The notes beneath the pieces were generated by a model that saw only the letters and a program-made list of their open reading frames with translations, was not told the origin of the DNA and did no database searches. A program made the translations under genes and the position numbers. Positions 15,499-17,341 of a stretch of 49,319 nucleotides of DNA are shown here, piece by piece. The stretch is from an uncultured Hellea sp. (GTDB lineage: Bacteria; Pseudomonadota; Alphaproteobacteria; Caulobacterales; Maricaulaceae): contig CAJQGR010000069.1 of NCBI GenBank assembly GCA_905477785.1, forward strand, positions 1-49,319, in the 5' to 3' direction. How positions within the stretch are numbered: the stretch's first letter is position 1; every line of letters begins with the position of its first letter.

Positions 15499-16065
15499 GT
15501 GATAAAAAAATTTAAAATAATAATCATTATTTTGACTGCTATATTCATTTATAGCAATAATTATGCAGAGAGCCCAATTGAGGACCCTAACGCAACAATC
15601 GAACTACCCAATAAAAAACTTACAAAAAAGGGAATGCGTATAAATGGACCTGTAACATCAGTATCTGCTGGTGCTTTATTACTAGCAAGCTTTGATAAAA
15701 ATTATAATTTCCAAATTGACTTTAAAGAATTTAATAATGCAAAAAAATATATATTTAATAGTGCAGATGTTGATAAATCGGGGGTAATTAGTCCATTTGA
15801 ACTCGAAGACTGGAGGAAATCAGCACTCGGTTCTTTAGATGCACCTCCTGGAAATTTAGCATTTGATAGAGACTATGACCAACGAGTTACCAAAAATGAA
15901 TTTAACAAAGCTCTAGTTTCTATTTTCAACTCAGGCGATAAAAATAATGATGGTGTACTAAAATTTAGCGAACTAGTTAATGTTTTCGAAATATCTAACC
16001 GCAACGTAACTATTAGTAACAATGAAGATGAAGTTCAGAATAAGATAAAATTAAAAAACAAATAA
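15499..16065 (+). CDS. Secreted EF-hand calcium-binding protein
   Basis: A 188-residue exported protein: residues 1-24 are a signal peptide, with a GTG start preceded by AAGGA. Four EF-hand-like loops occur in two pairs, at about 66-77, 90-101, 123-134 and 147-158. Loops 2 (D-V-D-K-S-G) and 4 (D-K-N-N-D-G, then E158) are canonical; loops 1 and 3 lack the central glycine and are probably weak or structural. The family suggests calcium binding in the periplasm or outside the cell; partner and role are unknown. It is the first of three small envelope genes on this strand. Confidence 0.82.
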   Translation: MIKKFKIIIIILTAIFIYSNNYAESPIEDPNATIELPNKKLTKKGMRINGPVTSVSAGALLLASFDKNYNFQIDFKEFNNAKKYIFNSADVDKSGVISPFELEDWRKSALGSLDAPPGNLAFDRDYDQRVTKNEFNKALVSIFNSGDKNNDGVLKFSELVNVFEISNRNVTISNNEDEVQNKIKLKNK

Positions 16066-16130: not shown

Positions 16131-16634
16131 ATGATTAATTCAAAAGTACTCATTAGTTTTATCATTTATATGATTTTAATGGGGTGCCAGGTACTCGAAG
16201 GTGGTAAAAAAGCTGCAAAAATACCTTTTCAAGGAGTCTATAAAACTGGCCAGATAACTGGGAAAACACTCTATAAAACCGGTGAAATAACAGGGAAAAC
16301 AGTTTACAAAACAGGTGAAGTTGCAGGAAAATCTGTATACTATAGTGGGAAATATACTGCAAAAGGTGTTTACAAAGCAGGAAAGTTTACCGGTAACAGG
16401 GTTTTAGATACTGGTAAAGGTGTATATTTTATAGGTTCTATACCAGTAAAAATTACAAATGAGGCACTTGATACTTCAGTAAAAGTTCTAACAGTAACTA
16501 CAAAAACAGTAGGATTAGGCGGAAAAGTCATCACGACAACAAGAAAAATTCAAGCAAATGAATTAGAAGCTGAGTTAATGGCAATTCGTGGTGCAAGTAA
16601 TGTGCTAAATGTATTAGTAAAAGCCGCGATGTAA
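16131..16634 (+). CDS. Lipoprotein with tandem 11-residue repeats, function unknown
   Basis: A 167-residue predicted lipoprotein with lipobox LMGC (C19). I do not recognise the family. Residues 31-96 are six in-register 11-residue units with consensus x-T-G-K-x-V-Y-K-T-G-E, very regular in the middle four. The rest (97-167) is Thr/Val-rich and then helical. Eleven-residue periodicity is known from amphipathic helices that lie on membranes (synuclein- and LEA-like proteins), but the glycines every unit could equally favour a beta structure. It sits between the EF-hand protein and another secreted protein, all on the plus strand with short gaps. Confidence 0.7.
   Translation: MINSKVLISFIIYMILMGCQVLEGGKKAAKIPFQGVYKTGQITGKTLYKTGEITGKTVYKTGEVAGKSVYYSGKYTAKGVYKAGKFTGNRVLDTGKGVYFIGSIPVKITNEALDTSVKVLTVTTKTVGLGGKVITTTRKIQANELEAELMAIRGASNVLNVLVKAAM
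16221..16418 (+). repeat. Six tandem 33-bp units coding 11-residue repeats
   Basis: The coding region for residues 31-96 of the lipoprotein repeats with an exact 33-bp (11-codon) period and no indels between units. Units 2 and 3 differ in protein at only one position (L for V). DNA similarity is partial, so the array is old enough to have diverged at synonymous sites. Confidence 0.75.
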
Positions 16635-16698: not shown

Positions 16699-16744
16699 TA
16701 TATGGAGGCATTATGCGAATATATATGGAGGCATTATGCGAATA
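16699..16744 (+). repeat. Perfect 23-bp tandem duplication of a ribosome-binding site and start codon
   Basis: Bases 16699-16721 and 16722-16744 are identical. Each copy holds GGAGG, a short spacer, and ATG CGA ATA, so the translation start of the next gene is present twice. The first ATG (16713) opens a 10-codon frame that ends at TAA (16743-16745), just past the second ATG (16736), which starts the real gene in a different frame. Confidence 0.9.
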
Positions 16745-17341
16745 ATATTAGTTTCTATAATTACAACAATTTCATTAATTTGTTATACTTCAGGTTATGC
16801 GGCGAATAAAAAATTTATCAACACAATTAACACTTCAGTCACATTTCCTATTAAATTAGATATAAACTTGAGTGACGACATGCTTCATCGAGCAGAGAAC
16901 CTTCCTAAAAGATTAAAAGATAGAAACGGATCCAAGTTAAACTCAGGGTTTTCAGGTAATGGTTTTTATGGTGATAAGGAATTAAAAAAGCTTATTTCGA
17001 AGTTAGAAATAAGTATAAAAAATCAATTTAAAAAATTTAATATTGAAATTTCTGAAGATGCAGAAACTATTCTTAGCGTTACACTAGTTGATGCTAAACC
17101 AAACCGTCCTACCTTCAGGCAGTTAGCTAAAGAACCAAGCTTATCATATCAGAGCTTTGCAACTGGCGGTGCCAAAATACAGGCAGAGTTGTTATCCCCT
17201 AGCGGCAAAGTAATCGGAAAATTTATATATGAGAACTATGAAACTGATATAAAAAATTCACGTTATGGCAGCACTTGGAAAGACTCCAAAAGAGCATTTT
17301 ATTGGTTTGCGATGAAGTCTGCAAAAGCTTTAAAGCAATAA
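16736..17341 (+). CDS. Secreted protein of unknown function
   Basis: A 201-residue protein with an N-terminal signal peptide (about 1-22, ending near GYAA). I cannot place it in a named family with confidence. After the signal there is a mixed alpha/beta region: a lysine-rich helix (about 85-103) followed by beta-like segments (ETILSVTLVDAKP) and an aromatic C-terminus (AFYWFAMKSAKAL). This build resembles small periplasmic or outer-membrane-associated proteins that assemble near the envelope, but that is only an impression. The start is the second of two identical 23-bp copies; the first gives an out-of-frame 10-codon upstream frame. It ends 3 bp before queE, which runs the other way. Confidence 0.65.
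   Translation: MRIILVSIITTISLICYTSGYAANKKFINTINTSVTFPIKLDINLSDDMLHRAENLPKRLKDRNGSKLNSGFSGNGFYGDKELKKLISKLEISIKNQFKKFNIEISEDAETILSVTLVDAKPNRPTFRQLAKEPSLSYQSFATGGAKIQAELLSPSGKVIGKFIYENYETDIKNSRYGSTWKDSKRAFYWFAMKSAKALKQ

Follow-up and report, generated by a model that had tools for sequence, protein, structure and literature searches.

Helix-phased length variation in the glycine-rich spacer of an alphaproteobacterial lipoprotein family with a DUF3313-like gene partner

Introduction

What is the 11-residue repeat of a small lipoprotein encoded by an uncultured Hellea species, and what might it do in the cell envelope? The window analysed here is a stretch of 49,319 nucleotides (contig CAJQGR010000069.1, assembly GCA_905477785.1), and the gene lies at positions 16131-16634 of its forward strand. 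A preliminary description, made from the letters of the window, saw in it a lipoprotein with six perfect 11-residue repeats of unknown fold, each with a glycine pair said to be unusual for a helix.

Several known systems are of use for comparison. Braun lipoprotein Lpp is a lipid-anchored helix with a terminal Lys; the window lipoprotein differs from it by a C-terminal domain and has no Lpp-like terminal Lys. SlyB is a glycine-zipper outer-membrane lipoprotein, and SlyB-type helices are hydrophobic two-helix units. The likeness here is that of a lipoprotein with predicted G-x-x-x-G helices, but the window family has no Pfam match to the SlyB kind. Perilipins and synucleins contain 11-residue amphipathic units with a helical period of 11/3, perilipin 4 being rich in Thr, Gly, Val and Lys (PMC5889406, PMC8064757 and PMC9796804), net basic, and unfolded in solution (PMC5889406 and PMC8064757). 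Finally, in coiled coils the heptad has a period of 3.5 and the hendecad one of 11/3 = 3.67, with a stutter giving 7+4=11 (PMC4786415).

Results and Discussion

A lipoprotein gene and its relatives

The ORF is a real gene as judged from its sequence: its 167 amino acids begin with a signal-peptide-like start and the lipobox L-M-G-C19, continue with a segment in which Tyr, Lys, Thr and Gly are abundant, and end with a 63-residue C-terminal part (Table 1). Cys19 is invariant in all 29 aligned sequences, as in a bacterial lipoprotein processed by signal peptidase II, and the assignment to lipoproteins made in the preliminary description therefore stands at the level of sequence. Other invariant columns of this alignment, which omits two truncated sequences (L002, L029) and the named duplicates L031-L037, are P32, G95, G97, L113, T123 and G131. 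P105, a second proline, is frequent without being invariant. Asp was found at position +2 in none of 62 distinct sequences, themselves selected by a lipobox pattern, which fits the outer membrane by the E. coli sorting rule, although the host order may differ. The protein is thus predicted to be anchored most likely at the periplasmic face of the outer membrane.

Table 1. Positions in the window of the parts of the lipoprotein gene and of its two neighbours
Feature	Position	Strand	Basis
EF-hand protein, upstream gene	15499..16065	+	Pfam EF-hand_1, E 7e-13
Signal peptide, residues 1-18, lipobox L-M-G	16131..16184	+	Sequence
Predicted lipidation site Cys19 and short linker up to conserved Pro32	16185..16226	+	C19 and P32 invariant in the 29-sequence alignment
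Spacer, residues 33-104: five full 11-residue units from Tyr37, partial units at the ends	16227..16442	+	Lag analysis, spacer lengths, hydrophobic spectrum, helical wheel
C-terminal domain, residues 105-167, length near-constant	16443..16631	+	Lengths in relatives, low-confidence model, dN/dS
Secreted DUF3313-like protein, downstream, probable operon partner	16736..17341	+	Co-occurrence, adjacency, DUF3313 matches

With a profile built from the 29 sequences (E <= 0.001), the lipoprotein family was detected in 88 of the 398 genomes of the order, belonging to 13 of 59 genera. Class-wide, the same profile (E <= 1e-4) found only the window's own genome among 385 genomes drawn from the class. The single protein used as a query recovered 35 of 99 relatives. 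Eight loci carry names, seven of Hellea and one of Robiginitomaculum; Hellea balneolensis is placed by NCBI in the Robiginitomaculaceae, Maricaulales, Alphaproteobacteria.

At E up to 1, the window protein matched nothing in Pfam, NCBIfam or PHROGs and no PDB chain, so that the initial remark that it belongs to no named family was correct for these libraries. The family profile had one PDB hit (E 0.95) and the repeat alone had two (best E 0.61), all taken as chance. Among the matches listed in a literature search, there was no paper on the lipoprotein family. Membership of DUF6726 (PF20487) was considered and rejected. The likeness is that of short alphaproteobacterial lipoproteins, with a weak match spanning the signal peptide and the residues directly after the Cys: 7 of 29 relatives matched at E up to 1 (best 0.00045), and 6 of 10 members searched singly did so with at best 21.8 bits. 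The window protein itself had no match, all relatives stayed below the curated cut-off of 27 bits, and the four loci above this cut-off differ, by eye, in having neither the repeats nor the C-terminal domain. A viral origin was rejected as well: one stretch of a viral contig fitted a pattern, but none coded for a relative.

Imperfect units in strict register

Between residues 34 and 104, 28 of 60 residue pairs are identical at lag 11, compared with a mean of 6.2 and a maximum of 16 in 20,000 shuffles, and the identity fraction at lag 11 was reached by no shuffle at any lag from 4 to 24. The proposed 11-residue register without indels is therefore real, and far above chance. Six units do stand in register, but they are not perfect: those starting at residues 31, 42, 53, 64, 75 and 86 agree with the nine fixed positions of the consensus xTGKxVYKTGE at 5, 8, 9, 5, 6 and 5 positions respectively, so that only one of the six matches throughout. 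Similarly, the glycine pair attributed to each unit is present in four of the five full units (those of Tyr37, 48, 59 and 81), but the fourth, at Tyr70, has Gly and Ala. Beneath the 11-residue period, a 4+7 lattice can be seen, with lags 4, 7, 11, 18, 22 and 29 raised.

The most alike adjacent units have 26 of 33 bases in common, which indicates that the array was not freshly duplicated. The repeat region is under purifying selection. Between the window and its near relative L031, dN was 0.08 for a dS of 1.44 in the repeat region, and 0.025 for a dS of 0.64 in the C-terminal domain, dS being saturated in several of the more distant pairs. Between L033 and L034, the 59 repeat codons showed 0 nonsynonymous changes, with a pS of 0.46.

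Spacer lengths share the phase of an alpha-helix

The spacer was measured between two proline anchors. Once repeated sequences had been removed, 109 hmmsearch rows left 51 with both anchors and 23 without. Among the former, the mis-anchored L027 was replaced. Among the latter, manual anchoring brought back L016, L087 and L101, while the truncated L029, seven tandem paralogues, a paralogue on contig C91 and 11 short members lacking the first proline were set aside. Merging of identical spacers then gave 51 distinct ones. These 51 spacers have 15 distinct lengths, from 22 to 84 residues (22, 29, 32, 36, 40, 44, 47, 51, 58, 62, 65, 66, 69, 73 and 84). Once sorted, these lengths are separated by steps of 7, 3, 4, 4, 4, 3, 4, 7, 4, 3, 1, 3, 4 and 11, and we read them as sums and differences of 11- and 7-residue units. 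Between these anchors the window spacer measures 73 residues, and those of two close relatives 62 and 51, that is, one and two units fewer in the alignment; the spacer of L074 consists, by eye, of 7-residue units only.

The 15 lengths have a common phase at a period of 3.66 residues, with a resultant of 0.86; expressed in turns of 3.66, every length is at most 0.26 turn from a whole number. Among 20,000 random sets, each of 15 integers within the observed range, none attained this resultant in the band 3.5-3.7, and 4 did so when any period between 2 and 12 was allowed, the observed lengths being drawn from related sequences. At periods 2, 2.75, 5.5, 7 and 11, the resultant was between 0.08 and 0.21 (0.20 at 2, 0.21 at 5.5, 0.11 at 11), and its low values at 11 and 5.5 show that the phase is not the plain outcome of 11-residue duplication. 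Pooled self-similarity over 36 regions, obtained with a looser anchor and including two mis-anchored ones (L027, L045), had peaks at lags 7, 11, 18, 22 and 29 (z 16 to 31) and a weak excess at lags 4, 15 and 25 (z 2 to 3).

Hydrophobic power, pooled over the spacers, has its main peak at 100 degrees (z 46) and a second one at 162 degrees (z 29); the charge peak is at 100 degrees and the small-residue peak at 98 degrees. Together, the phase of the lengths and the hydrophobic peak at 100 degrees argue for an alpha-helix made of hendecads and heptads. The 11-residue helical period initially evoked is thus supported by sequence patterns across relatives. As to the unknown fold, the term remains apt for the C-terminal domain, but for the repeat the comparative evidence points to an alpha-helix.

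Gly, Thr and Val have a low helix propensity in water. Their high content in the spacer would suit a non-helical segment, either beta-rich, amyloid-like or a disordered linker of which composition alone matters, and so would the hydrophobic harmonic at 162 degrees and a resultant of 0.53 at period 2.2 (five per eleven, strand-like). The AlphaFold model of the whole protein (9 sequences) also leaves the repeat unstructured and does not draw it as a helix; at a pLDDT of 34, structure prediction, one of the checks first suggested for the repeat, was uninformative. A further point against the helix is the hydrophobic moment of the window spacer taken as a single sequence: its value of 0.19 is exceeded by the highest among 2,000 shuffles, 0.29. 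However, the lengths hold the helix phase better than strand parity (period 2), and the lack of nonsynonymous changes between L033 and L034 is unlike what a free linker would show. We consider a non-helical spacer improbable.

Another kind of helical protein deserves mention, since LEA and antifreeze proteins have 11-residue helical repeats and Hellea is marine: the lipoprotein could be a stress-protection or ice-binding protein on the envelope (LEA group 3 or type I antifreeze-like). No Pfam model of such a family was matched, by the whole protein at E up to 1 or by residues 1-107 at E up to 10, where only Moricin came up (0.42). Furthermore, the conserved C-terminal domain and the gene partner described below are foreign to both kinds, neither of which includes, to our knowledge, anything of the sort. 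This explanation appears very improbable.

A small-residue face along the helix

The distribution of residues around the putative helix was derived from 136 unfiltered units, supplied by the 33 spacers (out of 51) that are 40, 51, 62, 73 or 84 residues long. In an earlier wheel count, of 84 hendecads, residues were limited at all 11 positions; its composition is partly circular because the pattern restricted every position, and only the 136-unit count is free of this bias. The latter gives the same picture, less strict. At position 4, 106 units have Gly and 135 a small residue; at position 8, there are 87 units with Gly, 102 with a small residue and 32 with Tyr. The two positions are jointly small in 101 units and jointly Gly in 58 (mean 5.9 and maximum 13 in 1,000 shuffles), which is how often the glycine pair occurs across the family. 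Position 3 is small in 128 units and position 11 is Val in 60. Charged residues occupy position 5 in 125 units and position 9 in 89, but position 2 in only 39 (Gly in 31), and the aromatic position 1 is Tyr in 87. On an 11/3 wheel, the small or apolar positions 3, 7, 11, 4 and 8 occupy the arc from 196 to 327 degrees and the charged ones that from 33 to 98 degrees, with a moment of 0.33 against a shuffle maximum of 0.06 for the 136 units.

The glycine pair is thus a G-x-x-x-G placed on one helical face, with Val, Thr and Ala. A G-x-x-x-G flanked by small residues is the classic spacing for close helix packing. This makes the pair compatible with a helix, and the suspicion that it would be unusual there is not sustained, all the more so as the 11-residue lipid-binding helix of perilipin 4 also contains Gly, at 5 per 33 residues (PMC8064757). 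The sequence pattern combines 11- and 7-residue units with a continuous core strip, as does a hendecad/heptad rod. Such coiled coils, in which 7- and 11-residue units interchange (PMC4786415), are among the closest likenesses for reading the spacer as a lipid-anchored rod; the difference is that the spacer core would be Gly/Val/Thr/Ala, not Leu/Ile.

How would such a helix be used? A first alternative to the rod is that the spacer lies on the membrane as a 3-11 helix, like perilipin 4. As in perilipins and synucleins, the spacer has 11-residue units and an 11/3 period; its apolar arc is rich in Thr, Gly and Val, its net charge is positive (mean +0.11 per residue), and it has 6.2 Gly per 33 residues in the window and 7.0 as a family mean, versus the 5 of perilipin 4. 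Printed hydrophobic moments are 0.257 for perilipin 4, called the lowest among known lipid-binding helices, and 0.30 for alpha-synuclein (PMC5889406). The window spacer lies below these, with 0.19 over its whole length and an average of 0.23 in 33-residue windows on a Fauchere-Pliska scale, the comparison with printed values being rough. Besides, the small-residue strip exceeds the needs of lipid binding, and 20 of the 51 spacers have only 40 residues or less. The bacterial protein also differs in having its own lipid anchor, a C-terminal domain, a G-x-x-x-G strip and, in relatives, 7-residue units; we claim no sequence homology. The membrane-lying helix is our second choice, possible but rather unlikely, and we prefer the rod or bundle, to which we would still give somewhat less than an even chance.

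A second alternative takes the same wheel into the membrane, where several amphipathic helices would form an outer-membrane-inserted oligomer, as a barrel or zipper bundle with the charged arc inward. The opposition of the charged arc (positions 5 and 9, and 2 in part) to a wide small or apolar arc, the aromatic position 1, and a small face suited to close packing in the membrane would agree with this. Yet a charge comes every 3-4 residues, lengths of 22-84 residues do not correspond to a single membrane thickness, and no PDB relative was found by sequence; we find this arrangement quite improbable.

The C-terminal domain

In contrast to the spacer, the part from the second anchor to the end is near-constant, with 62-65 amino acids in the anchored rows and a single exception of 69 (L075); the mis-anchored L027, and L035, cut by a contig end, were left out of these lengths. 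A model of 75 residues built from 8 sequences, headed by the Hellea balneolensis relative in place of the window protein, has a mean pLDDT of 53 (64-67 in the best blocks), and from it we would guess a beta-beta-alpha-beta topology. Foldseek comparison of this model with the PDB gave 296 matches, none of them at E <= 0.001 (best 0.27), and no fold homology is therefore drawn.

A DUF3313-like gene partner

The gene directly downstream codes for a protein with a signal-peptide-like start and, by eye, no lipobox. All 12 regions clustered for the window's family contain a gene of the same kind. The profile built on these 12 members matches 310 of 398 genomes at E <= 0.001; close relatives of the partner (E 5.6e-75 or better, the next best being 1.1e-39) are found in 34 genomes, which are exactly the 34 genomes of the window's family holding the lipoprotein. 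In 32 of the 34, the partner adjoins the lipoprotein gene downstream on the same strand, with 78-168 bases between the matched stretches; of the remaining two, one is 2069 bases off and the other on a different contig. These are not 34 independent events, because 12 of the genomes themselves supplied the profile and all the holders may belong to a single clade, within which the gene pair could be co-inherited. In addition, genes identified by eye as queE and queC lie close by in 9 of the 12 regions, and some of the linkage is thus plain synteny; the pair stands without them in the other three.

Nine of the 12 partner members have a DUF3313 match at E up to 1, the strongest at 1.1e-6, whereas that of the window has none, and two relatives searched singly reached 23.5 and 14.6 bits, compared with the Pfam cut-off of 26.1 bits. 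Against the PDB, the partner profile hit nine protocadherin sequences (best E 0.0076), treated as chance. Common ancestry of the lipoprotein and its partner was rejected, with a profile comparison probability of 0.6 per cent.

A helical rod of variable length

The reading that we favour, tentatively and at a little below even chances, is a lipid-anchored helical rod that carries a C-terminal domain and works with the DUF3313-like partner. The arrangement that we infer, for helix, packing, location, partner contact and spacer role alike, would be as follows. The lipidated Cys19 would anchor the protein, most likely at the periplasmic face of the outer membrane, and the 72-residue spacer would be one long alpha-helix of 11-residue (three-turn) units, to which relatives would add 7-residue (two-turn) units. 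Through these units, one face would be lined by Gly, Thr/Ala and Val, and the side across from it by Lys/Glu. By its small face, the helix may pack closely with others, in glycine-zipper style, into a rod or bundle, leaving the charged arc to water. The rod would keep the small alpha/beta C-terminal domain at a fixed distance or at a given point along the membrane, and there the domain may meet the co-encoded secreted protein. Rod length would then evolve in steps that keep the C-terminal domain facing roughly the same way.

A more specific version, which we regard as doubtful, is that of an envelope ruler of a new class: an outer-membrane lipoprotein with a glycine-zipper helix whose reach evolution re-tunes by near-whole turns, longer or shorter, keeping the facing of its end domain, with a DUF3313-type partner. 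If true, spacers of 22 to 84 residues would, when helical throughout, reach about 3 to 13 nm.

Eleven-residue helices, glycine strips and lipid-anchored rods are all of known kinds; their combination is new, and the comparison across the family is more interesting than the single protein. The family constitutes a natural series in which one apparent helix is cut, in phase, to many lengths. Such a series would allow tests of helix length and register against the position of a periplasmic domain, and also of whether glycine-rich 11-residue helices pack together or rest against the membrane. For DUF3313, a poorly known kind, the family moreover supplies a candidate partner.

Other genes of interest

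The upstream EF-hand gene adjoins the lipoprotein gene in three clustered regions of the same genus and in 0 of 18 other regions. Its product weakly resembles lanmodulin (25.5 bits, far under the model cut-off of 135).

In a second family (f2), different genes surround the shorter lipoproteins. In part of it (L070, L071, L072 and L088-L090), the lipoprotein family is represented twice, by a first member and, close to it, a diverged second one.

The window genome has a second lipoprotein-like gene, on contig C91 (L078:5754-6425), located after genes identified by eye as surE and pcm. Its product begins with two or three similar repeat units (by eye), differs in its C-terminal part and has no Pfam match. 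Weak hits of this kind were also seen in other genomes of the genus.

Lastly, one genome of the genus carries the DUF3313-like partner as two tandem copies downstream of the lipoprotein gene (G004:C13:20127-21569).
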